From assembly GCA_016201215.1 (NCBI GenBank), contig JACQDH010000202.1:1-33231 (forward strand): a stretch of 33,231 bases of DNA, given 5' to 3'. This DNA is from Acidobacteriota bacterium (GTDB taxonomy: Bacteria; Acidobacteriota; Terriglobia; Acidiferrales; UBA7541). This document shows, in pieces, positions 2,600-16,221 of the stretch. Below the pieces are notes generated by a model. The model was not told the origin of the DNA and ran no database searches. It worked only from the letters and a program-made list of their open reading frames with translations. The translations under genes and the position numbers were made by a program. Position 1 is the first letter of the stretch, and each line of letters opens with the position of its first letter.

Positions 2600-4807
2600 A
2601 TGACCCTCAGAAGGCGCAGCGCGCTGCTGATCCGTCTAATCTGCGCGGGTACCGCTGTTCTGTGGATTCTGCTCGTGGTGGTGAATCCCAGTCTGCTCGA
2701 GCGGTTTGAACTGGCTGCCCTGGATACCGAACTGCACCTGGCGTCTGCTTCGCGCGCCTCCTCGGACATTGTCATCGTAGCACTCGACGAGCGTGCCGTG
2801 CACCGCTACGGGCCCTTGCGCTGGCCGCCGGCGCTGATGGCCGAAGTGCTCACCGCGCTCGACCGTGTCGGCGCGCGCGTGATCGCCTTTGATTTCGTTT
2901 TTTCGGGGGATGGCGACCGGCGCGCACAAGCGGCGACGCCGGGGCCGTCGCGTTACTTGCCGCTGTGCGAGGCGGTCGCGCGCAGCGGAAAAGTGGTTCT
3001 GGGCACCTACTTCGATTTTGAATCCGACCCGGAGGACCGTCCCGCTCCTCCCGACTTCCGCGAGCATCGCGCGCGGAGCGTCCGCTATCTCGGCGGCGCG
3101 ACCCCGGCGACGGCGGAGGCGCCGGTGCCCCTGGCCAGCGAAGTCCACCCGCTGGCGCCGGAACTGGCGGCCGTGGCGCACAGCTTTGGACATCTGAACA
3201 TCGTGCCCAGTCCCGGCGATGGGATCATGCGCTGGCTGCCCCTGGTCGCGCGCTATCAGAATGATTTCTACACCGACTTCGACGTGGAGGTGGCGCGCAC
3301 CTATTTGGGCAACGTCCGCGCCGAGCTGCTCCTCGGCCGGCGACGGGTCGAAGGCGTGCAACTGGGCCCGCGACGCATCACCACCGACGAGCGCGGGCAA
3401 TTGCTGATCCGCTTTGCCGGCGGGCGTGGCAGCTACACAACGCTTTCGGCCGCCGACCTGCTCGCCGCGAGAATCCCCCCGGAGCAGCTTCGCGATCGTA
3501 TCGTGCTGGTGGGTTCGACCGCGGCCGGCGCCGCCGACGTTTGGGCCACGCCGCTCGACCCGCTGCTGCCCGGCGTGGAGATCCATGCCAATGCGATTGA
3601 TAACCTGCTGCATGGCAACTATCTGGTGCGCAACTGGCAGACCCGCCTGCTGACCTTTGTCGTGCTCGCCCTGCTGGGCCTCGGCGGCGGGCTGGTTCTG
3701 CCCTGGGCGCTGGGTTTCGGCCTGCGGCGCCTCGGAGCGTTGGCGGCAGCGGTGGTTGCGGCCGGGCTGGTGGGCCACTACTTGCTGTTCACGCGCACGG
3801 GCTACGCCGTGGGCCTGGTGTCGCCGCTGCTGGCCATGGTGACGCTGCTGGGAGGCACCCTGGTGGCCAGCTACTTCACCGAAGAAAAGCAGCGTCAGCA
3901 GGTGGAACGCAGCTTCGAGCACTACCTGGACCGCAGCGTCATCAACGAGCTACTGGAGCGCCCGGAGCGGCTGCGGCTGGGCGGCGAGCGCCGCGAGTTG
4001 TCCGTGCTGTTCTGCGACATTCGCAATTTCACCAGCCTCGCCGAGGGCCTTCCCCCCGAGGCCACCGTGGAGATGCTGAACGAGTTCTTCACCACCATGA
4101 CTGGAGTGATCTTCTCGCGCCGCGGCTTGGTGGACAAGTTTGTGGGTGACCAGATCATGGCGGTGTGGGGCGCGCCGCTCGAGCGCGCCGACCACGCGGC
4201 GCAGGCCTGTGCGGCGGCGCTCGAGATGACCAAGGCTTTCGGCGAACTCAAGGCACGCTGGGCCAACCTGCCGGTCTGCGCCTGGGATCCGGCGCGGAAA
4301 GAAAGCCAGGCGGGGCCCACTACAATCAACTGCGGCGTGGGGATCAACTCCGGGCCCATGGTGGTCGGCAACATCGGCTCAGCGCGCCGAATTTCCTACA
4401 CCGTGATCGGCGACCACGTGAACGTGGCCTCGCGCCTCGAGTCGCTCAACAAGCTCTACGGCACGCAAATATTGGTCGGTCCGCCCACCTATGTGGCCGC
4501 GCGGGAGGAGTTTCGTTTTCGGGAAATCGATCGGTTGCGCGTGCGGGGACGCACGCAAGCGCAGGTCGTGTATGAGTTGCTCGGCCGCAACCACACGCCG
4601 GCGCTCGATGAGGATTGGCTGGCTGCGTTTGCCGAGGGCCTGGAAACCTACCGCCAGCAGGACTGGGCCGCAGCGGCCCGCGCCTTTGCCGCCGCGCTCG
4701 ACCGTAATCCATTCGATGCCTGCGCGAAGTTTTACCTGTCCCGCGCCGAGCATTTCGCTAAGAATCCTCCCAAGGAAGAGCGGGAAGGCGCCCTCTATCT
4801 TCGTTAG
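2600..4807 (+). CDS. CHASE2-sensor class III adenylate/guanylate cyclase
   Basis: A 735-residue membrane receptor cyclase. Order: TM helix at about 10-28; extracytoplasmic CHASE2 sensor at about 30-345 (DIVIVALDERAVHRYG, VIAFDFVFS, and the closing PGVEIHANAIDNLL); three TM helices at about 350-425; a short linker (SYFTEEKQRQQVERSFEHYL); class III cyclase domain at about 465-645; and a C-terminal TPR-like segment. The catalytic set is present: metal-binding Asp473 (FCDIRNFT) and Asp517 (DKFVGD), Lys513 and Asp605 (TVIGDHVN) at the purine-specifying positions, and Asn608/Arg612 for transition-state binding. The Lys/Asp pair fits adenine, so cAMP is the likely product. The FecR gene follows 55 bp downstream and is probably co-transcribed. 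The signal sensed is unknown. Confidence 0.93.
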   Translation: MTLRRRSALLIRLICAGTAVLWILLVVVNPSLLERFELAALDTELHLASASRASSDIVIVALDERAVHRYGPLRWPPALMAEVLTALDRVGARVIAFDFVFSGDGDRRAQAATPGPSRYLPLCEAVARSGKVVLGTYFDFESDPEDRPAPPDFREHRARSVRYLGGATPATAEAPVPLASEVHPLAPELAAVAHSFGHLNIVPSPGDGIMRWLPLVARYQNDFYTDFDVEVARTYLGNVRAELLLGRRRVEGVQLGPRRITTDERGQLLIRFAGGRGSYTTLSAADLLAARIPPEQLRDRIVLVGSTAAGAADVWATPLDPLLPGVEIHANAIDNLLHGNYLVRNWQTRLLTFVVLALLGLGGGLVLPWALGFGLRRLGALAAAVVAAGLVGHYLLFTRTGYAVGLVSPLLAMVTLLGGTLVASYFTEEKQRQQVERSFEHYLDRSVINELLERPERLRLGGERRELSVLFCDIRNFTSLAEGLPPEATVEMLNEFFTTMTGVIFSRRGLVDKFVGDQIMAVWGAPLERADHAAQACAAALEMTKAFGELKARWANLPVCAWDPARKESQAGPTTINCGVGINSGPMVVGNIGSARRISYTVIGDHVNVASRLESLNKLYGTQILVGPPTYVAAREEFRFREIDRLRVRGRTQAQVVYELLGRNHTPALDEDWLAAFAEGLETYRQQDWAAAARAFAAALDRNPFDACAKFYLSRAEHFAKNPPKEEREGALYLR

Positions 4808-4862
4808 TTCCACTCCGCGAGTGGGGCAGGGAACTGGACCAGCGCCGGCAAGGAGGCCGATG

Positions 4863-5690
4863 ATGAACGTGCTGCTCTCTATTGTCCTGGCATTGCCGGT
4901 GGCGCTTCAGCCGCAGGCTGCCGCGCCCCCGAGCGCGGAGGCTCAGCCCGTCGCCGCGGTGACTCAGGTGTCGGGCGAAGTCTTGGTGCGTCACGGGCAG
5001 GCGTGGGCCCTCGTGGACAAGGTGCCGATGAACCTGGTGAGCGGTGACACGGTGACCACCGACCGCGGCCGCGCCGAAGTCCACTTCCTGGCCGACGATT
5101 CCACTCTGGTTCTGGATGTGGGCACCCACCTGAGCATCTCCGAGACCCCCACGCGTACGGGCTGGCTGCGCCGCGTGGAGATTTTTCTCGGCGACGTATG
5201 GTTTCATATGCAACACAGCCTGAAAGGTAACACCGAGCTGGCCACGCCCACCGCCGTGGGCGGATTGCGCGGCACTCAGGGGCTGATCCACGTGGAGAAC
5301 GAGAATCAGAGCAATTTCACCTTGTCCGAAGGAGAGCTGGAGATCGCCCAGGTGGCCGGAGCCGGCGGCGGACCGGACGCCGCCAAGGGTATCAGTCTCC
5401 ATGCCGGTGAGACCTTGCAGGCGTCTCGCAACAAGCCGTTGCACGTGAGCAAAGCCGCTGCGCTGCCCGCGCGGCCGGCGGTCAATGTGCCTGCCAATCA
5501 ATTGCCCAAGCCGCGCGCGAACTGGCGGGAACTCATGAGCAAAGACCGGCGGCCGCCGGCGGTGAGTCGGGCCCCTGCGGTTTCCAGTCGCCCGGCTGCT
5601 CCAGGCAAGGCGGCCACGCCGGCAAAGCCCGGACAAACCACGAAGCCGGTGAAGAATGCTCAGCAGCACAAGCCGCCCTCGCTTAGATAG
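4863..5690 (+). CDS. FecR-domain exported protein
   Basis: A 275-residue protein with an N-terminal signal-like segment (residues 1-20) and a FecR domain at about 35-150. Key blocks are VSGEVLVRHGQAW, SGDTVTTDRGRAEVHFLADDS, GTHLSI and the strand TPTAVGGLRGTQG. The tail from about 205 is rich in Pro, Ala and Lys and probably disordered. Two adjacent ATGs occur (4860, 4863). 4863 is chosen because AGGAGG at 4851-4856 sits six bases before it; the other leaves only three. FecR domains in classic systems relay iron signals to ECF sigma factors, but no sigma gene is nearby. Here the neighbour is the CHASE2 cyclase, so a structural or sensory role at the cell envelope alongside it is inferred. Confidence 0.82.
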   Translation: MNVLLSIVLALPVALQPQAAAPPSAEAQPVAAVTQVSGEVLVRHGQAWALVDKVPMNLVSGDTVTTDRGRAEVHFLADDSTLVLDVGTHLSISETPTRTGWLRRVEIFLGDVWFHMQHSLKGNTELATPTAVGGLRGTQGLIHVENENQSNFTLSEGELEIAQVAGAGGGPDAAKGISLHAGETLQASRNKPLHVSKAAALPARPAVNVPANQLPKPRANWRELMSKDRRPPAVSRAPAVSSRPAAPGKAATPAKPGQTTKPVKNAQQHKPPSLR

Positions 5691-7399: not shown

Positions 7400-8506
7400 A
7401 TGATGTTGTCTCTGCTCTTGCTTCTGACCGGCGCTTCCTGCTCGCACAGGTCCTCGGCGGGGGACGACCAGGGGGAGGGGAAGGACAATCTTGGCGCGGT
7501 GGTTGCGGAAGTGACGCTGACACGCGTCGCGCGCGCCGAGATCAGCCAGATGCTGGTGGTGACCGGCACGATCGCCGCGCTGCCCAATCAGGATGTACGC
7601 GTCAGCTCCCTGGTCCCCGGCCGCCTCGCGCAGATGAAGGTTGCCGAGGGCGACCGCATCTCCGCCGGACAATTGGTGGCGCAGATTGAAGAGCAGCCTT
7701 TCCGCGACCAGCTTCAGCAGGCCGAGGCAGCCGCGGCCACCGCACGGGCAAATCTTGAGAATGCCAAACTCTCTCGCGCCCGCAACGAAAACCTTTTCGC
7801 GCGCGGTATTGCCGCTCGCAAGGACTTGGAAGACGCGCGAACACTGGAAACCGTCGCCGAGGCCGCCGTCCGCCAGACTGAAGCTGCGCTGGCACTGGCC
7901 CGCCTGCAACTCTCGCGCTGCGAAGTTCGCTCGCCACTGAGCGGCAGCGTGGTCAAGCGCTTCGTCAATGTGGGCGAGCAGGTGGACGGCTCGGCGGCTC
8001 AGCCCATCCTCGAAGTGGCCAACCTCCGCGAGGTCGAGCTGTTTGGCAACGTGTCCTCAGTTTACCTCGGCAAAATGCGGCCAAACCAGACTCTGCCCAT
8101 CTTGAGCAGTGCTTCTCCCGGTAGAGCATTCTCCGGGCGGGTGGTGGCGATTTCGCAGGCGGTTGATCCGGCCACCAACTCCGGTCTGATCCGCATCCGC
8201 ATTGCCAACGGAGACGGGCTGCTGCGTCTGGGGATGTTCCTCAATGCGCAGGTGCCCGTCGAAACGCACGCCCAGGCGCTCGTCGTGCCGCCTCAGGCCA
8301 TCTATCGCGACCAGCAAGGCCAGCCGCACGTGTACCGGGTCGAGGGCGAGAACGCCACTTCGATCCCGGTGCAGACCGGTATCGAGTCGTCGGACCATAT
8401 TGAGTTGCTTTCCGGCGTTGCGGAAGGCGACGCGATCATCCTGGGTGGCGGCTATGGTCTCGGCGAGAAGACCAGGATCAAGGTGCCGGCCCGGGCCAAG
8501 CCATGA
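7400..8506 (+). CDS. Periplasmic adaptor (membrane fusion protein) of RND efflux pump
   Basis: HlyD/RND-type adaptor joining pump and TolC channel. From ATG 7400 the protein has 368 residues: a signal-like hydrophobic run (MMLSLLLLLTGASC), then lipoyl half-motif VSSLVPGRLAQMKVAEGDRI, an alpha-hairpin with RNENLFARGIAARKDLEDA, the second lipoyl half CEVRSPLSGSVVKRFVNVGE, and beta-barrel and membrane-proximal domains (LVVPPQAIYRD). The same frame is open to an ATG at 7250 that abuts the tolC stop. That would add 50 non-secretory residues before the signal segment, so 7400 (or 7403) is preferred although it lacks a good ribosome binding site. The Cys after GAS could be lipidated, but Gly at -3 makes a poor lipobox. 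Its stop overlaps the pump start as ATGA. Confidence 0.9.
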   Translation: MMLSLLLLLTGASCSHRSSAGDDQGEGKDNLGAVVAEVTLTRVARAEISQMLVVTGTIAALPNQDVRVSSLVPGRLAQMKVAEGDRISAGQLVAQIEEQPFRDQLQQAEAAAATARANLENAKLSRARNENLFARGIAARKDLEDARTLETVAEAAVRQTEAALALARLQLSRCEVRSPLSGSVVKRFVNVGEQVDGSAAQPILEVANLREVELFGNVSSVYLGKMRPNQTLPILSSASPGRAFSGRVVAISQAVDPATNSGLIRIRIANGDGLLRLGMFLNAQVPVETHAQALVVPPQAIYRDQQGQPHVYRVEGENATSIPVQTGIESSDHIELLSGVAEGDAIILGGGYGLGEKTRIKVPARAKP

Positions 8507-10041
8507 ACGTGGTGCGCTTCTGCCGGGAGAACCGCTACGCGGTTTACCTGCTGACCGCATTTCTGACCGTCGCGGGTTTTTCCTCGGTTTTCCTCCTTCC
8601 GAGCAACATTTATCCCGAGCTGAACTTTCCGCGCATCCTTATTCTGGCGCACTCGGGCGACCTCGCGCCGGAAACCATGCTGCTGACGGTCACGCGCCCG
8701 CTCGAGGAATCGGCCAGCACCGTGCTGGGCGTGCGACGGGTGCGCTCGAAGACCATTCGCGGCGCCAGCGAGATCGCCGTACTTTTTCACCCGGGCATGG
8801 ACATGCAGTACGCGCTGCAACTCGTCCAGGCGCGCGTCAGCGAAGCGCGTGCCGCGCTTCCCGCGGACACGGACATCGTGGTCGAGCGCGTCACCCCCGC
8901 TGTCTTTCCCGTGGTCAGCCTGATCCTGAATGGCCCGGTGCCCAGCCAGGACTTGCGCGACTACGCCTTCTACGTCCTGCGGCCGCTATTCAGCCGGGTT
9001 TCGGGCGTGGGCCGGGTCGAAGTCCAGGCCAGCGACACCCGGGAAATCTCCGTCATCGTGGACCCCCAGAAGCTGTTAGCGCACCATCTCTCGCTCGTGG
9101 AGGTTGCCGACCGGCTCCGCGCCACCAACCAGGTGACCTCGGTGGGGCGGTTGCAGAAGGACTACCTGCAATACCTGGTCTTGACCACTAGCCAATTCCG
9201 CGATCTCGAAGAGATCCGCAACACCGTGGTGGCCGTTGAAGGTCAGGTTCCCATCCGCCTGCGGGAAATCGCCGAGGTGCGCGACGGCGTAGAGGATCGC
9301 CGCACGCTCATCACCGGCAACGGGCAGCCGGCGGCGCTGATCAATATTTCCCGGCAGATCGGCGGCAATATCTTGCAGATCGCCAGCGACGTCAAGCACC
9401 TCGCCACCCACTTGGGCACGGCCATTCCGCAGACCCTGCGTCTCTCGCTGGTCTATGACCTCGCCGAGTTCGTCGAGAGCGCCATCGGCAACGTCCGCGA
9501 CGCCATTCTGATCGGCGCGGTTCTGGCCGTGCTTATCCTGTTTGTGTTTCTCCGCGAAGGCCGCACCACGCTGATCGCGGCCACGACGCTGCCGCTCTCC
9601 GTCATTGGCACGTTCTTCTTCCTAAAGGTCTTCGGCGGCACGCTGAACCTGATGTCGCTCGGCGGCCTGGCGATTGCCATCGGCCTGATCATCGACGACG
9701 CCGTAGTGGTCATCGAAAACATCTACCGCCACGTGGGCCTGGGCAAATCTCCGGCGCAGGCCGCTGAGCTGGGCACGCAGGAACTGCTCGGGCCGGTGGT
9801 GGGCTCGACCGCAACCACGCTGGTGGTCTTCCTGCCGCTCGGACTGCTCAAAGGCGTCGTCGGCGAGTTCTTCACCGCGCTGTGTCTGACGCTCGGCGTC
9901 TCCGTTCTTCTCTCCTTGGCCTTTGCGCTGACCATCATCCCGCTGCTGTCGCAGCGGTTCCTGCGGCGCGAGGCGTACCGGCCGTCCTCGGCACGGTTCA
10001 TCGAGCCCGTAAATCGCGCCTACGAGAAGGCTGTGCGCTAG
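8503..10041 (+). CDS. RND efflux pump, N-terminal half (ends at in-frame TAG)
   Basis: This 512-residue frame is the first half of an RND transporter: TM1 (about 12-32), porter subdomains PN1/PN2, and TM2-TM6. TM4 carries the proton-relay Asp pair Asp398-Asp399 in LIIDDAVVVIENIYRH. It begins at ATG 8503, overlapping the adaptor stop as ATGA. It ends with TAG at 10039-10041 just after the amphipathic helix that follows TM6. The same frame then continues without interruption into the second half, together about 1010 codons, the usual length for the family. So it is either a nonsense mutation in one gene or a genuine split. In related pumps a Trp or another residue often fits the stop position; TGG to TAG needs one base change. 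Substrate not predictable. Confidence 0.9.
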   Translation: MNVVRFCRENRYAVYLLTAFLTVAGFSSVFLLPSNIYPELNFPRILILAHSGDLAPETMLLTVTRPLEESASTVLGVRRVRSKTIRGASEIAVLFHPGMDMQYALQLVQARVSEARAALPADTDIVVERVTPAVFPVVSLILNGPVPSQDLRDYAFYVLRPLFSRVSGVGRVEVQASDTREISVIVDPQKLLAHHLSLVEVADRLRATNQVTSVGRLQKDYLQYLVLTTSQFRDLEEIRNTVVAVEGQVPIRLREIAEVRDGVEDRRTLITGNGQPAALINISRQIGGNILQIASDVKHLATHLGTAIPQTLRLSLVYDLAEFVESAIGNVRDAILIGAVLAVLILFVFLREGRTTLIAATTLPLSVIGTFFFLKVFGGTLNLMSLGGLAIAIGLIIDDAVVVIENIYRHVGLGKSPAQAAELGTQELLGPVVGSTATTLVVFLPLGLLKGVVGEFFTALCLTLGVSVLLSLAFALTIIPLLSQRFLRREAYRPSSARFIEPVNRAYEKAVR

Positions 10042-10044
10042 GCC

Positions 10045-11538
10045 TTGCGCCGCCGCGCCGCAATAGTGGGCGGCACTCTGCTCTCGGTGCTTGTGGGCGT
10101 GTTGCTGTTCTACTGGATGGAGACCGGATTCCTCCCGGAGATGGACGAAGGCGGGTATGTCCTGGATTACTGGACTCCGCCGGGAACCTCGCTCGCGGAG
10201 ACCGACCGAATCCTCCACCTGATCGAGCAGCGCATCCAGCAGATGCCGGAGACGACCTCATTCTCACGGCGTACCGGTGCCGAACTGGGAATGTTTGCCA
10301 CCGAACAGAACCGTGGCGACATTCTGGTCAAGATGAAGCCGCGCTCCCAGCGCAAGCGCTCGATCGCTGAGGTCATCACCGACCTGCGCGCCCAGATCCA
10401 GCAGAACATTCCCGGCGTGCTCGTGGAGTTTGTCCAGATCCTTCAGGACATGATCGGCGACATGGAAGGCAACCCGGAACCGGTGGAGATCAAACTGTTT
10501 GGTAGCAGCATGCCCGTGCTGGTAAAAGCGGCCGAGGAGCTGGGCCCGAAGATCCGAAAAATTCCAGGCATCGTGGACTACAAGGCGATTCAGAAAGGCA
10601 ACCCCGAGATCATCTTCCACGTGGATCCCATCCTCGCTGGCCGCGTGGGCCTGACCGTGGATCAGGTCTCGCAGCAGGTCAGCGCCGGATTGCTTGGCCT
10701 CACGGAGACGCAGTTCCGCGAGGCCGACCGCACCATCGGCATCCGCGTGCGATTTCCAGACAGCTTTCGCTGGAACTACGCCAACATCCAGCAGTACCCC
10801 ATCGTGACCTCGGCCAAGCAGATTGTGCCGCTCGCCTCGGTGGCCCGGATCGAGCAGGTGCGCAGCGCCAACCAGCTCAATCGGGAGAACCAGCGGCTGA
10901 TGGTGGCGCTGACCGCGCGGCTGGAGAACCGCGACCTGGGCAGCGCCATTCGCGACGTCCAGCGCGTGATGCGCGAGGTGCACCTGCCCGTCGGCTGCAC
11001 CTACGAAATCGGCGGGCAGTACGAAAGCCAGCAAAGTTCCTTCCGCGACCTGCTCTCTGTGCTCGGCCTGGCGCTCGCCGCGGTGTTCACCGTACTGGTC
11101 GTTCAGTTCCGCGCCTTCCGGCCGGCCCTGATCATCCTCTCGGCCGCACCGCTTTCCCTGGTCGGTGTTTTCGCCATGCTGAAGCTGACCGGCACCCCGC
11201 TGAACGTCTCCTCGTTCATGGGCATCATTCTGATGATCGGGCTGGTGGTGAAAAACGGCATCATCCTGTTTGAATACGTGGATAAGCTCTGGGCGGAGCA
11301 GGGATTGCCCTTGCGCGAGGCGCTGGTGGCCGCGGGCACGATCCGCGTGCGCCCCATCCTGATGACTACCCTGGCGACCTTGTTCGGGCTGCTGCCGCTG
11401 GCGCTTGGACTGGGCGCCGGCGCCGAACTTCAAAAGCCGCTGGCGCTGGCGGTGATCGGCGGGCTGACGCTCTCGACGTTCGTCACCCTGCTGGTCATGC
11501 CCGTGCTCTACTCGCTGCTGGAGCGCCGCAGCGCATAG
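10045..11538 (+). CDS. RND efflux pump, C-terminal half (after in-frame TAG)
   Basis: This is the continuation of the preceding RND gene in the same frame, one codon after the TAG; TTG 10045 is the first possible start. The 497 residues contain TM7 (about 7-25), porter subdomains PC1/PC2 (FSRRTGAELG, EFVQILQDMIGDMEGNPEPVEIKLFG) and TM8-TM12. TM10 carries the conserved Lys in MIGLVVKNGIILFEY, part of the proton pathway with the Asp pair of the other half. No clear ribosome binding site precedes TTG 10045, so expression would need readthrough or reinitiation after the stop. All expected RND motifs are intact and no second disruption is seen, which argues for a recent mutation, a sequencing or assembly error, or a functional split. 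Confidence 0.85.
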   Translation: MRRRAAIVGGTLLSVLVGVLLFYWMETGFLPEMDEGGYVLDYWTPPGTSLAETDRILHLIEQRIQQMPETTSFSRRTGAELGMFATEQNRGDILVKMKPRSQRKRSIAEVITDLRAQIQQNIPGVLVEFVQILQDMIGDMEGNPEPVEIKLFGSSMPVLVKAAEELGPKIRKIPGIVDYKAIQKGNPEIIFHVDPILAGRVGLTVDQVSQQVSAGLLGLTETQFREADRTIGIRVRFPDSFRWNYANIQQYPIVTSAKQIVPLASVARIEQVRSANQLNRENQRLMVALTARLENRDLGSAIRDVQRVMREVHLPVGCTYEIGGQYESQQSSFRDLLSVLGLALAAVFTVLVVQFRAFRPALIILSAAPLSLVGVFAMLKLTGTPLNVSSFMGIILMIGLVVKNGIILFEYVDKLWAEQGLPLREALVAAGTIRVRPILMTTLATLFGLLPLALGLGAGAELQKPLALAVIGGLTLSTFVTLLVMPVLYSLLERRSA

Positions 11539-11540
11539 GG

Positions 11541-11565
11541 GAAGCCGCTACGGCCTCACGGCTTC
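11541..11565. terminator. Hairpin between convergent pump and hydrolase genes
   Basis: GAAGCCG (11541-11547) pairs with CGGCTTC (11559-11565) across an 11-nt loop, immediately after the pump stop and overlapping the end of the convergent hydrolase gene. T-rich bases follow on the plus strand, but there is no long T run, so termination strength is doubtful. Confidence 0.35.
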
Positions 11566-13454
11566 TTCTTGGCCACAAACGTCCCCTTGGGCTGGTAGAA
11601 AACTGCTCCGGTCACCATGCCAGATGTATCCTGGTTGAACTCGATGCTGTAGCCGCTGACGCCCTTAAGCTCGAACAGCGTCCCCCTTCTTGGAACCAGC
11701 TCGTACTCGCGGCTGGCCAGCGTTAGGATCAGCGTCTTTTCGCCGCGGAGAGAGACGGCCGCCACGTTTGGGCCCACTTCATACTGTCCGACGAGGATTT
11801 CGAGGAACGCGCGTTCCGTCATCCGCCGATCGGGCCGGCGCGTGAAGACAACCGGCTTCACCGCGGGCTCCATGGGGATGGTGAGGCTGCCGATGTCCCC
11901 CGCGTCGTTGGTGAAGAAGCTGACCTTGGTTCTCTCAATGGGATTCAGGGGATCGGGCGGGGTCTCGAAGATGTCGTAGTGGAAATGCTTGAGCAGGGAG
12001 GAGAGCCGGTTGTAGGTAAGCGTCAGTTCATCCTTTTCCCTCCCGATCCCGACGCTCCCATAGCCTGGATTCTCGTACTCCCCCACGTACTCCTGCAAAT
12101 CGTGCGCGGGATGAGTGCCCTTCTTCTGGATTGTGAATCCCTTCTGCTTTGCCTCCGCCTCGGACGCGTCGTTCTTGTGCAGGTCATCGAGCAGGCGCTG
12201 GTTCCAGGGAACCTGGTCCAGGCCCAGCAGCCGGTCATAGGTGTTGTAGGCGAGGATGCTCGGCAAGCTGTTCCGGTTGGATTCGAGGTTCGTCAGCACG
12301 ACCACGCCGAGGTTGTCCTGCGGCAGGAAGCTCAGCAACGCGGTGAAGCCGTCGATGGCTCCCCCATGGGAAACCATCTTGTGTCCGCGGTAGCTGCTGA
12401 TGCTGAGCGCCATGCCGTAGCTCACGTGGCCGATCTCCGGGTAGCGCAGCGCGCTGGGTGCGACCATCTGCGGGGTGGTCATCTGCGCCACGTTGCTTTC
12501 CGACAGCACACGCGTCTCTCCGTGTTTTCCCCTGCCGAGGTACATCAGCAGGTACTGCGCCATGCCCTCCGCGTTGGAATTGATCGATCCTGCCGGACCA
12601 AGGGCATCGATCACGCGGAAGGGCACCTCCTTGACTTCTTCCGTGCTTCCCTCCTTGGCCACCTTGTAGGGATGCGCGAAGTCCGAGGACTTCTGCGAAT
12701 CGCTCACGGCAAAATTGCTGCTCTGCATTCCCAGCGGGGCAAAGATTCTCTGCTGCACCAGGTCTTCCCACTTCACTCCGGAGACATGGCTGGCCAAGTA
12801 TCCGGCGGTCACGAACATCAGGTTGTTGTACTGGTAGGTGCTGCGGAAATCCTTGCTGGGCTCGAGGTAGCGGAGCCGCTCGACCAGTTGCGCGCGCGTC
12901 AACTCGGAGTTGTACCACAGGGCGTCGTGTCGCGGCAGGCCCGAGCGGTGCGTCACCAGGTCGCGCGGTGTCATGTGCTCGCTGGCCACCTCGTCGTACA
13001 TCCGGAAGCTCGGCATGTACTCGCGCACCGGTTTGTCCCATTCGAGCTTGCCCTCGTCCACCAGCCGGGCCAGCGAGGCCGCGGTGAAGGACTTGGTGAT
13101 CGAGCCGATGGCGAACAGCGTCTGCGGTGTCACGGGGAGTTGGTTCTTCACGTCGCGGAAGCCGTAGCCCCTTGACAGGATCACCTTGCCGTCCTGCACG
13201 ATCACCAGGGACAACCCGGGAACTTTCCAGTCCTTCATCGCCTGGGCCACGAAGGTATCGAAGCCCTCCAGCTTGGAGGTTGTTGCGGCCTGTTCGGCCG
13301 CGCGGGTCGTCGGTTTGCCTTTGGGAGCCGGTTTGGTCTTCTGCTGGGGCGCCACGGGTGGCGTGGTCACGCGAATTTCCTGCTGGGCCGCGACCCGGAT
13401 ACTTGGGGTCACGAGCAGGGACAAACACAGACCAAGGGACAGCCAGCTACGCAT
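11556..13454 (-). CDS. Exported serine beta-lactamase-like hydrolase with DUF3471-type domain
   Basis: 632 residues from ATG 13454, chosen because GAGGAGG lies just upstream and a signal peptide follows directly (MRSWLSLGLCLSLL, cleavage near VAAQ); the frame is open 36 codons further but that extension is not protein-like. A class C beta-lactamase/penicillin-binding fold spans about 60-440, with nucleophile Ser118 and Lys121 in GSITKSFT, Tyr209/Asn211 in YQYNN, and His363-Gly364-Gly365 in VSHGGAIDGF as the KTG-box equivalent. The part beyond about residue 470 (LQEYVGEYENPGYG) resembles the DUF3471 beta domain found at the C-terminus of such esterases and peptidases. It probably acts in the periplasm on an ester or a D-amino-acid peptide. 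A minus-strand TACAAT at 13508-13513 may be its -10 element. Confidence 0.9.
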   Translation of the reverse strand: MRSWLSLGLCLSLLVTPSIRVAAQQEIRVTTPPVAPQQKTKPAPKGKPTTRAAEQAATTSKLEGFDTFVAQAMKDWKVPGLSLVIVQDGKVILSRGYGFRDVKNQLPVTPQTLFAIGSITKSFTAASLARLVDEGKLEWDKPVREYMPSFRMYDEVASEHMTPRDLVTHRSGLPRHDALWYNSELTRAQLVERLRYLEPSKDFRSTYQYNNLMFVTAGYLASHVSGVKWEDLVQQRIFAPLGMQSSNFAVSDSQKSSDFAHPYKVAKEGSTEEVKEVPFRVIDALGPAGSINSNAEGMAQYLLMYLGRGKHGETRVLSESNVAQMTTPQMVAPSALRYPEIGHVSYGMALSISSYRGHKMVSHGGAIDGFTALLSFLPQDNLGVVVLTNLESNRNSLPSILAYNTYDRLLGLDQVPWNQRLLDDLHKNDASEAEAKQKGFTIQKKGTHPAHDLQEYVGEYENPGYGSVGIGREKDELTLTYNRLSSLLKHFHYDIFETPPDPLNPIERTKVSFFTNDAGDIGSLTIPMEPAVKPVVFTRRPDRRMTERAFLEILVGQYEVGPNVAAVSLRGEKTLILTLASREYELVPRRGTLFELKGVSGYSIEFNQDTSGMVTGAVFYQPKGTFVAKKKP

Positions 13455-13555
13455 AGCGCCTCCTCGAGGAGTGAACACCGACCCGATATCAGGCCGCACG
13501 GAGCCCGATTGTACTGAAACAGGTAATACATCGTCTCCGTTTTTGCGACAGGTGA

Positions 13556-13584
13556 TTGACACTGCCTGGCTCGAGGGCTACCAT
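13556..13584 (+). promoter_or_regulatory. Strong sigma70-type promoter for the exported two-gene unit
   Basis: A perfect -35 TTGACA (13556-13561), 17-bp spacer and TACCAT (13579-13584, four of six). The predicted start near 13591 leaves about 30 nt before ATG 13621. It is the best-matching promoter I find in the window. Confidence 0.6.
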
Positions 13585-13620: not shown

Positions 13621-14121
13621 ATGCCAGCGTGTTGCAGATTTCTCGTGGCTTTCCTGCTGCTGTTCTTGGTGGCGGGGGTCGCTCCGCGCGCTGCCGCGCA
13701 GGGCGATTTCGAGTGGCGCGTGCAATTGAAGCAGAACATCGTCGCCCCGAGCAACATCGAGGCGGAGAACATCTGTCACCGCACGCACAGCTTTCAGGTC
13801 GAGCCGGCGTCTTTGCCGTTCATGCGCCTGCTCGGGCCCGGCTCGTTTTCGGTCAGCCCCGGCCGGTCCCACAAGGTCCCGGTCGAGTTCGACACGCGCA
13901 ACCAGAAACCAGGGCAACAGGAGGCCGTCATTGTGGTGAAATGTCTGACCTGCAAGAGCGAGAAAGGCTGCCGTCAAGACCACAAGAACCTGCATGTCTT
14001 TCTCACCGTTCTTCCTGCCGCGCCCAACTGGTCCGGCGTCCATCCCGAACAGAAGGGCTCGGCGACGCAGAGCCCCACGCTGCGGTGGTCAAACGTTTCG
14101 CCCGAAAAAAAGCCGCTGTAG
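13621..14121 (+). CDS. Small exported Cys-containing protein, unknown function
   Basis: 166 residues from ATG 13621, preceded by a GAGGG-type ribosome binding site. A clear signal peptide (hydrophobic 8-20, cleavage near RAAAQ) shows export. The mature part has a beta-sandwich feel: alternating strands with FQVEP, FSVSPGRSHKVPVEFDTR and EAVIVVKCLTC, similar to the pattern of ASPM/SPD-2/Hydin-type immunoglobulin-like domains, but I cannot assign a family. Four mature Cys (ICHRTH, and CLTCKSEKGC) could form disulfides or bind a metal. The C-terminal 30 residues are polar and probably flexible. The gene ends 42 bp before the tetrad-repeat gene and shares its promoter, so the two exported products may act together (inference). 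Confidence 0.75.
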   Translation: MPACCRFLVAFLLLFLVAGVAPRAAAQGDFEWRVQLKQNIVAPSNIEAENICHRTHSFQVEPASLPFMRLLGPGSFSVSPGRSHKVPVEFDTRNQKPGQQEAVIVVKCLTCKSEKGCRQDHKNLHVFLTVLPAAPNWSGVHPEQKGSATQSPTLRWSNVSPEKKPL

Positions 14122-14163: not shown

Positions 14164-16221
14164 ATGAGTCTTGCGCTCCTGCGTTCCCGTTCTTCCGTAT
14201 GGATGGTTCCTTTCTGCCTGGCGATTCTCGCCGGACTGCTGCCCGGGGTCGCCCACGCGCAGTTGCCCTACGCCCCCCCGACCGCCTGCAAGCAGCTTTG
14301 GGATGAAGCCAGCGCCCAGGCCGCGCAGGCCGCGCAGGAAAAGGCCAGCTTGGCGGCGGGTGCTGCACCGAGCGCCGCGGCCAGCCGTTGGGCGCAAGCC
14401 TGGACGCAAGCCTGGATCGCCCCTTGGACCGCGCCGGCCACGGGGTTGCAGCCGTCGCGCGCCGACCGTTGCTGCGACAGCAACTGGTTCGAACTCGCTG
14501 CGCAAACCGGCAAGGCCGGCTGGGTAACGGCATGGAAGGCGGCCGGCGGGTTGAGCGGCCCAGACAAGGCGTGGGCCGAAAAGTATGCCGACAGCTACGC
14601 CGGGGAATGGGCAAGAGAGTGGTTCGTGTCCTATCCGTGGTTGTGTGCCATGGCGCGCGCGAAGGCTCAAGCCGAGCGTTTTCGCGATCGCGCGCGCTTC
14701 AGCGACGCCACTGCCGACGCGTGGGCGTGGGCCTGGGCAGACCTCGACGTTTGGGCGCAAGTGCGTGCGTCGGTCTGGACTGAAGTGTGGACGAAGGCAG
14801 GATCCGCCGCCTGGGCCAAGGCGGGCGCCGAGGCGATGACCGCCGCGGCGGCATCCGCGGAGAGCACGGCCCTGGCCGCAGTCTCAGGCAATTGCGCCCT
14901 TGCGGCGGCCAGCGCCTGCGCCAGAGCCGCTGCGGCTGCCTACGCTGCAGCTTGGGCCGCGGCAGGTTCCAGTGCGTACAGCTCCGCGTACGCAGAGGCT
15001 TCCGCCGAGGCCATGGCGCGAGCGTTCGCAGAAGCCTGGGCCGGGGCGATGTCCGGCGCAAACGCGGAAGCATTTGCAGCCGCCTATGCGAAAGCGTTTG
15101 CGAAAGCGGGAGCAAAGGCGTTTGCTGCCGTTTGGCGATTGCGGCTGGCTGACGAAGGGCAGCTATCCCAGATTGTTAAATGGTGGAAAACCCCGGGGGT
15201 CCCGCAGCCTCCATTCCAGTCGATTTGGAAACTCCTCGCTGCGGCACGGGCCGAGGCAACCAAGAAAGCGGTAGCAGAGGCTTGGGCTATTGCCTGGGCA
15301 GAGGCCCCGCCCGCCTTCGCTAGCGATTTCAAACACGTGCGATCATACGTGTACGAATACCTACACGCCTGGACCAGTAGCTGGGTCAACTCCTGGACGG
15401 AAAGTTGGGCATATGCCTGGGCCCGCGCCTGGGCAGAAGCCTACGCCTTGGCCTGCTCGCGGGCGGCCGCTGTGGCCTGTGCCCAGTGCCCGCCGTGTAC
15501 CACGACGACCACAACGGGGCGCCCGCGCACCATCGAGCGGCCAAGTGGTTTCACTTATACGCTGGTCGGACTAGGCGTGACCGCCGGCAGCATCATCCAG
15601 ATCGTCGTGCGCAACACCACCGGCGAGCCAATCGTCGTCGAGGTGCCCGCCGGCACTGTCTTCAAGCCCAGCGACCCGCAGCACCAGCGCATGGTCATCT
15701 CCGAGGATCAGCGCGTCACCGTGCCATCCAATCAGACCACGCAGGCTCCCTTGCAGGGATACTGTCTTGATTACGGCAAGCTGCCACCCCCACCCACGAC
15801 CCTGGGCGCGCTGGCCACCGAACCTGTGCTCGTGGCCGCGCTGGACCCCAGGTTCGCTTTGTCTTCCACGCTCGGTCCGCAGGCCCCGGGCGGCGCTGTG
15901 AAGTATCAGCTCGATGAGAATCCCGCTGCCTACGCGCCGTTCCTCCGCATTATCGAGTCGGGGAATCGTCTGGCGGGTGAAGGCAAGTTCCACACGGACC
16001 TGCCGCCGGACAAGCACAAACTGGCTGTCATCCAGCGCGCCTTGTGGACCTACGCGACGCGCAACACGCCCACGCCGCACACCCGCGAGACTCTGCTCGC
16101 CGACATCCGCCGCCAGGTGAAGGAATCCGGCGGGACACAGACCGAGGAGCAAATCCAGGAGCTGGTGACGCACATCGCCGAAGACATCGAAAGCGTCCTC
16201 CGCGCCGCCGAACGGAAGTAA
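14164..16221 (+). CDS. Exported tetrapeptide-repeat protein rich in Ala and Trp, unknown function
   Basis: 685 residues from ATG 14164, with GTGAGG seven bases upstream; a GTG four codons earlier is less likely. The signal peptide ends near VAHA (32). Residues about 35-445 are extremely Ala-rich with some 33 Trp. An aromatic or other large residue recurs every fourth position, for example W76/80/84/88, a 17-position run from Y260 to W324, and W403/407/411/415/419/423/Y427. Conserved-looking Cys lie at the repeat ends (C431 and the CAQCPPC cluster). A Thr-rich linker leads to a beta-rich region at about 455-540 (IVVRNTTGEPIVVEVPAGT) ending GYCLDYGKLPPPP, then a helical tail containing VIQRALWTYAT (Q624). 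I do not recognise the repeat family. A surface, fibre or adhesive role is inference. The preceding exported gene is 42 bp upstream. Confidence 0.8.
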   Translation: MSLALLRSRSSVWMVPFCLAILAGLLPGVAHAQLPYAPPTACKQLWDEASAQAAQAAQEKASLAAGAAPSAAASRWAQAWTQAWIAPWTAPATGLQPSRADRCCDSNWFELAAQTGKAGWVTAWKAAGGLSGPDKAWAEKYADSYAGEWAREWFVSYPWLCAMARAKAQAERFRDRARFSDATADAWAWAWADLDVWAQVRASVWTEVWTKAGSAAWAKAGAEAMTAAAASAESTALAAVSGNCALAAASACARAAAAAYAAAWAAAGSSAYSSAYAEASAEAMARAFAEAWAGAMSGANAEAFAAAYAKAFAKAGAKAFAAVWRLRLADEGQLSQIVKWWKTPGVPQPPFQSIWKLLAAARAEATKKAVAEAWAIAWAEAPPAFASDFKHVRSYVYEYLHAWTSSWVNSWTESWAYAWARAWAEAYALACSRAAAVACAQCPPCTTTTTTGRPRTIERPSGFTYTLVGLGVTAGSIIQIVVRNTTGEPIVVEVPAGTVFKPSDPQHQRMVISEDQRVTVPSNQTTQAPLQGYCLDYGKLPPPPTTLGALATEPVLVAALDPRFALSSTLGPQAPGGAVKYQLDENPAAYAPFLRIIESGNRLAGEGKFHTDLPPDKHKLAVIQRALWTYATRNTPTPHTRETLLADIRRQVKESGGTQTEEQIQELVTHIAEDIESVLRAAERK
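14389..14427 (+). repeat. First tetrad repeat block (W76-W88)
   Basis: Encodes four Trp spaced exactly four residues apart (76, 80, 84, 88). The DNA has a 12-bp rhythm around TGG codons but is too diverged to be an exact nucleotide repeat. Confidence 0.8.
14752..14838 (+). repeat. Second tetrad repeat block (W197-M225)
   Basis: In one phase of four, the positions read W197, R201, W205, W209, G213, W217, G221, M225, with Val or Ala just before most of them. It is preceded by a denser WAWAW run (187-191). Confidence 0.75.
14941..15135 (+). repeat. Main uninterrupted tetrad block (Y260-W324)
   Basis: Seventeen consecutive positions at spacing four read Y W G Y Y S M F W M N F Y F G F W; eleven are aromatic. 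The residue before each is Ala in 15 of 16 cases and the middle residues are mostly Ala with Glu, Lys, Arg or Ser. Codons vary between units, so the pattern is held at protein level rather than being a fresh DNA expansion. Confidence 0.9.
15370..15444 (+). repeat. Last tetrad block (W403-Y427)
   Basis: Six Trp and one Tyr at exact four-residue spacing (403, 407, 411, 415, 419, 423, 427), with Cys431 continuing the phase. The first tetrads use Ser/Thr/Asn between the Trp, the last use Ala/Arg/Glu. Confidence 0.88.

Follow-up and report, generated by a model that had tools for sequence, protein, structure and literature searches.

An exported Acidobacteriota protein with aromatic residues at every fourth position and a possible helical fold

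In the stretch of DNA analysed here (33,231 nucleotides, referred to below as the window), a soil-type Acidobacteriota bacterium encodes an exported protein in which Trp, Tyr or Phe occupies each fourth position, with Ala in between. This locus raises the question of whether such spacing belongs to the protein or is left over from a DNA repeat, and of what a chain of this kind could fold into. The gene is an uninterrupted plus-strand frame (14164-16221, in an open span of 14152/14164-16221) with its start at ATG 14164 and GAGG a few bases 5' of it; residues are numbered from that Met. Export had already been proposed in the original prediction, and agrees with a predicted signal peptide at residues 1-32 ending in AHA, the probable cleavage site lying between AHA and Q, after residue 32. 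Further along, the same frame continues into a conserved C-terminal module, which argues that it is translated. The parts of the protein are the following:

14164..14259 (+), predicted signal peptide: Arg-rich start, hydrophobic core, A-H-A site
14389..14427 (+), tetrad block 1, W76-W88 (4/4)
14572..14634 (+), tetrad block 2, W137-Y157 (6/6)
14752..14814 (+), looser tetrad stretch, W197-W217 (4/6)
14941..15135 (+), tetrad block 3, Y260-W324 (11/17 aromatic)
15370..15444 (+), tetrad block 4, W403-Y427 (7/7), with the best HMM self-match (6.7e-9)
15454..15516 (+), Cys cluster (C431, C439, C442, C445) and Thr6 linker, at the boundary between the repeat region and the C-terminal module
15532..16218 (+), C-terminal module, with a beta-sandwich-like and a helical half in the model (pLDDT about 80 in ordered parts)

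The unit of the repeat is aromatic-Ala-(polar or Ala)-Ala. An earlier count of about 33 Trp was reproduced (33 in the mature repeat region), and the three blocks described at that time proved exact, namely W76/80/84/88, the track from Y260 to W324 (17 positions, 11 of them aromatic, with Ala preceding 15/16) and W403/407/411/415/419/423-Y427. Block 2 (W137-Y141-Y145-W149-W153-Y157, a perfect step of four) and the looser stretch were absent from that description. Within the mature repeat region, 28 aromatic pairs are found at i,i+4, against 7.8 ± 2.4 expected from 2000 composition-preserving shuffles of the same region (z 8.5), and W-W pairs taken alone reach z 7.2; further peaks appear at spacings of 8, 12, 16 and 20, with depletion at 3, 5, 7 and 9. 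A partner four residues away is present for 42 of the 56 aromatics, and the best 17-position step-4 track holds 11 of them; in 3000 shuffles the best track averaged 6.3 and never exceeded 11. When position counts are pooled from the 28 units, edges included, of the three blocks named earlier, position 0 is aromatic in 22/28 units, position 1 is Ala, Thr or Ser in 25/28, position 2 is mostly charged, polar or Ala, and position 3 is Ala or Ser in 24/28.

The original prediction also held that codons differ between units and that the pattern is maintained at the protein level, and both statements are borne out by a codon test. Of 36 Ala-codon pairs at i,i+4 within the blocks, 11 match (0.31, vs 0.32 predicted from codon usage), and the tandem arrays detected by TRF within the tetrad blocks reach at most 2.3 copies of 12 bp. 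On the other hand, Ala-codon identity four residues apart is 0.85-1.0 in seven phage tetrad ORFs. Since the codon match is at chance level here while the phage tetrads are near-identical, the window pattern would be old and not a product of recent slippage; the phage arrays, by contrast, look freshly slipped, whereas the window pattern looks to have survived synonymous saturation. Synonymous changes have saturated the DNA and yet the protein pattern persists, which we regard as the strongest evidence suggesting that selection keeps the four-residue spacing itself. The same data bear on the explanation that the region is an old 12-bp slippage array in decay, with a spacing that has no function and a chain that is low-complexity filler from signal peptide to C-terminal module. 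Phage tetrad genes show how readily 12-bp Ala/Trp arrays arise in GC-rich DNA (Tweety gp54, PMC2884959), and the gene sits in a variable slot without a homologue in its order. Nonetheless, synonymous positions are fully randomised and the strict blocks still keep aromatics in 22/28 and small residues in 24-25/28 units; as unselected non-synonymous positions would have drifted like the synonymous ones, we consider this explanation very unlikely.

Regarding known families, the earlier statement that none with this pattern could be recognised holds in one respect and fails in another. No family was matched in Pfam, NCBIfam, PHROGs or the PDB, the first three giving none over any part of the protein, but a published parallel for Ala/aromatic tetrads exists. 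The mycobacteriophage protein Tweety gp54 carries 40-48 Ala-Ala-x-x units with unique ends on either side, and how many repeats it has tunes its role in counter-defence (PMC2884959, PMC9262239). Together with Che8 gp57 and PMC gp51, it resembles the window protein in having a long Ala-rich run of strict period four, some Trp/Tyr at fixed positions, unique termini and GC-rich DNA, and it differs in its near-identical 12-bp DNA units, copy-number changes and A-A-[GWQ]-[SY] unit (PMC2884959). The window protein also repeats every four residues and keeps Ala at set places in the unit, but the first two residues of its unit are not invariant Ala (Ala alternates with x and the aromatic, as aromatic-A-x-A), it bears a signal peptide and other termini, its DNA contains no tandem 12-bp array by either TRF or codon identity, and it is not phage-encoded, given its chromosomal neighbours and the lack of a PHROGs match. 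As it is like the phage tetrads in period only, differing in unit phase, termini, DNA array and export, it is not classed with them, and the likeness is a resemblance only.

Uncharacterised phage proteins with AAAW or AYAD tetrads (L105, L115, L145, L151; some in PHROG 18326, 3416 or 8332) likewise combine Ala and aromatics at period four, and some even share the aromatic-A-polar-A unit, but their codons are near-identical, their flanking domains are others, no signal peptide is obvious by eye, and no homology to the window protein was detected. It is hardly credible that the gene encodes a phage tetrad-repeat protein that was captured or domesticated: although A-aromatic-A-polar tetrad proteins occur in viral contigs (L151, L112), the flanks of the phage versions are unrelated, PHROGs gives no match for the tetrad protein, its chromosomal neighbourhood is free of phage genes, and a protein-level scan returned no viral relative. 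More broadly, unrelated four-residue-repeat proteins of Ala/Trp, Ala/Tyr or Ala/Gly/Trp type were seen in many viral contigs (L105, L115, L138, L145, L172, L183, L133, L117, L151, L112), where they sit behind varied N-terminal domains as a recurrent, little-described phage feature; an ORF in viral contig L148 (5969-6583) alternates almost without exception between Ala and Tyr/Asn (AYAYANAY...) and is probably a simple repeat in the DNA. A different kind of parallel is offered by the CryoSeek II freshwater glycofibrils, outlined in an article that cites them as extracellular, glycan-coated linear chains of tetrapeptide repeats (PMC12967142). On that outline, the extracellular location and the four-residue protein period are shared with the window protein. 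These glycofibrils reportedly need glycosylated Ser/Thr and modified Pro, with a glycosylated Ser, Thr or Pro per unit, whereas the 28 window tetrads hold few Ser/Thr and two Pro.

Whole-protein and repeat-HMM searches for relatives of the tetrad region came back empty in the order (95 genomes), in the family and in 396 genomes drawn from the phylum; more than three repeat-HMM matches in those 396 genomes occurred in the window's own genome only. Homologues with the same spacing but a different sequence, named in the original prediction as prospective support, were thus not found for this region. A DNA search of the phylum for Trp/Tyr codons at step four recovered mostly out-of-frame simple GC repeats, and among the loci kept only the window has a long tetrad-run ORF; a plasmid search gave no match and a viral-structure search no significant one. 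Two weak candidates were set aside: an own-genome match at C248, an MFS-type transporter by sequence and taken as chance, and the PDB match PE8 (E 0.064), which probably reflects Ala composition. The gene and its upstream neighbour lie between two conserved genes:

11556..13562 (-), left flank, serine beta-lactamase-family protein, syntenic in a same-genus genome
16491..17324 (+), right flank, conserved secreted protein of unassigned function, beside an HTH gene in most relatives examined

In the one same-genus genome (G088) the flanks are kept, the beta-lactamase-family gene with an RND operon on one side and, on the other, the conserved gene with HTH and FAD genes, and phage or transposon genes were not found in the neighbourhood of the gene pair. 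Judged from this gene order, the pair is lineage-specific and fills a variable slot whose neighbours on both sides are conserved. In G088 the slot (L235 2417-6292) contains instead a gene resembling class A beta-lactamases and genes for a YVTN-type beta-propeller and a FecR-type protein, all names being read from sequences. Elsewhere in the window, the RND efflux transporter (8503-11538) comprises two ORFs split by a single in-frame stop (TAG, 10039-10041) past which the frame continues, the frame at the same site being uninterrupted in the same-genus relative; the split means that the gene is broken or that the assembly is wrong here. Next to this efflux operon (2600-5690) lies a CHASE2-adenylate cyclase gene, and the gene after it, which overlaps it, looks FecR-like from a reading of its sequence, with no Pfam match.

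The immediate upstream neighbour, which the original prediction left out, is on the same strand as the tetrad gene and 42 bases from it:

13556..13584 (+), promoter-like site TTGACA-17-TACCAT, 36 bases 5' of the upstream gene (10/12 in a consensus scan)
13621..14121 (+), upstream gene (P0002 family), encoding a 166-aa secreted protein with a signal peptide and a Cys-rich domain (ENICHRTHSF...CLTCKSEKGCRQD)

The consensus scan placed this promoter-like site before the upstream gene and none in the space separating the two genes, a consensus match alone being no proof of function. By eye, the Cys-rich domain, which is not in Pfam, is probably a beta-sandwich. In a sample of 327 phylum genomes, its clear homologues are confined to a single other genome, G201 (E 2.7e-16), where two proteins carry an upstream-type domain fused directly ahead of a coiled-coil region (L245 8183-10111; L246 4686-11927); one of the fusions lies in a 2414-aa open frame. 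These fusions follow the order of the two window genes, the Cys-rich secreted domain coming first and a helical region after it; they differ in being one polypeptide, with heptad-like Ala spacing and no aromatic tetrads, and a C-terminal module of the window type was not seen in them. An alignment of the tetrad protein's N-terminus to the fused coiled-coil tail is not compelling, as 1/300 shuffles reach its score over the region and 67/1000 do so for the first 43 residues, both stretches being Ala-rich. Fusion of the upstream domain to a coiled coil in G201 points to a functional association of the window pair, and by this gene-fusion argument the tetrad protein and the 166-aa protein probably act together. 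Where the coiled coil sits in the fusions also speaks for a helical tetrad region.

The last third of the tetrad protein (about 230 aa) was likewise missing from the earlier account, which was incomplete in this, in the close tandem secreted-protein gene and in the Tweety gp54 parallel. Following the Cys cluster and six Thr, it is a separate beta-plus-alpha module, modelled by AlphaFold2 as a beta part and then helices with pLDDT near 80 where ordered. Its homologues are the C-termini of two longer secreted Acidobacteriota proteins, L012 (826 aa; 24 per cent identity, E 6e-11) and L011 (964 aa; 22 per cent, E 3e-9), with short lipoprotein-like proteins as more distant relatives; a genome-wide scan with the module found nothing beyond these two loci. 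The window protein has the YC....K.PP and Q.A.WT segments of the module family, its C-terminal position and, as read from the sequence, a signal-peptide-like start. L012 and L011 share with it that start, the homologous module and a helical N-terminal part at the position matching the tetrad region, but this part consists of ordinary coiled-coil or helical segments without aromatic tetrads. Against the PDB, the best Foldseek matches of the module are mostly Ig/Fn3-like domains, none of them significant (best E 0.085), and the weak ones include glycoside hydrolase beta-sandwich domains and a cellulose-binding domain. Along with a secreted protein bearing 33 Trp and many Tyr, these weak matches would fit a surface-exposed aromatic ladder that binds polysaccharide, a membrane or a hydrophobic surface, the protein being an adhesin or carbohydrate-binding protein and not a scaffold. 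We think this distinctly unlikely, as the matches are non-significant and concern the C-terminal module instead of the tetrads, carbohydrate-binding families are absent from the Pfam and NCBIfam results, and an aromatic stripe on a period-4 helix is not flat.

The fold of the repeat region is where the evidence pulls in two directions. AlphaFold2 gives ordinary helices with breaks and no strands, at pLDDT 38-64 and with alignment depth in the C-terminal module only; a phage tetrad protein, modelled alongside, was likewise predicted as a single long helix, with low confidence overall and in the distal tetrads, and does not settle the fold. As homologues of the repeat region were not found in the genomes searched, no argument from covariation or conservation applies. 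The earlier suggestion of a fibre or a non-standard helix finds no support in these models. The geometry argument that accompanied it does hold: continuous coiled coils have a hydrophobic period of about 3.3 to 3.9 residues per turn, the highest observed being 3.8 (PMC4786415), and the tetrad blocks repeat at exactly 4.0 across 4-17 units, beyond that range, so a single long continuous coiled coil is unlikely. Against a helix stands an independent Ala parity, Ala-Ala pairs being enriched at even spacings up to 12 (z +4.6 to +8.2) and depleted at odd ones (-2.3 to -3.1); Ala at every second residue is what would be expected of a beta strand. The main rival is accordingly a beta-type fibre, with one all-Ala strand face and another of alternating aromatic and polar residues, stacked face to face, as silk-like peptides or alternating ones that self-assemble do, into an extracellular fibre or amyloid-like mat. 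The charged, polar or Ala residues at position 2 and a period inaccessible to continuous coiled coils also agree with it. It is still judged unlikely: Ala, Glu, Lys and Met strongly favour helices, beta-branched residues are scarce in the tetrads, AlphaFold2 predicts helix everywhere, though weakly, and proteins with either module bear coiled coils instead.

Our preferred reading, in which our confidence is evenly balanced, is that of a secreted structural or scaffold protein that works with the upstream secreted protein and whose alpha-helical tetrad region forms a multi-helix bundle or stalk, packing along an aromatic stripe that drifts. Its layout would be a signal peptide, then about 400 residues of Ala-rich alpha-helices striped with aromatics at period 4 and, after a Cys/Thr hinge, the C-terminal module, with an Ig-like beta half and a small helical half, that may anchor or dock the protein. 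On a period-4 helix the large aromatics would form a ridge winding slowly, about +40 degrees per unit, flanked by small Ala and with the polar residue roughly opposite. This ridge would pack large-into-small on adjoining helices with a contact face that keeps turning, hence runs cut into blocks of 4-17 units, register changes, and Pro/Gly/charged breaks between them. Alone or with partners, the region would thus fold as a multi-helix bundle or stalk and not as one long coiled coil, and the protein would act at or outside the cell surface along with its small upstream companion. Observed are the pattern and its survival of synonymous saturation, the signal-peptide-like N-termini, the homology of the module and the G201 fusions; helical fold, bundle or stalk, joint action and surface location are what we infer from them. 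We hold it improbable that the protein represents a novel exported architecture in which aromatic/Ala units of period 4.0, under selection for their pattern and not for their sequence, make up an assembly of helices (or an alternating beta fibre) beyond known coiled-coil geometry.

The locus brings to notice two uncharacterised secreted modules in Acidobacteriota, each paired with helical regions. In addition, it lets one ask of a natural protein whether a chain with aromatics at a strict period of four folds stably, a period that coiled-coil theory puts out of range.
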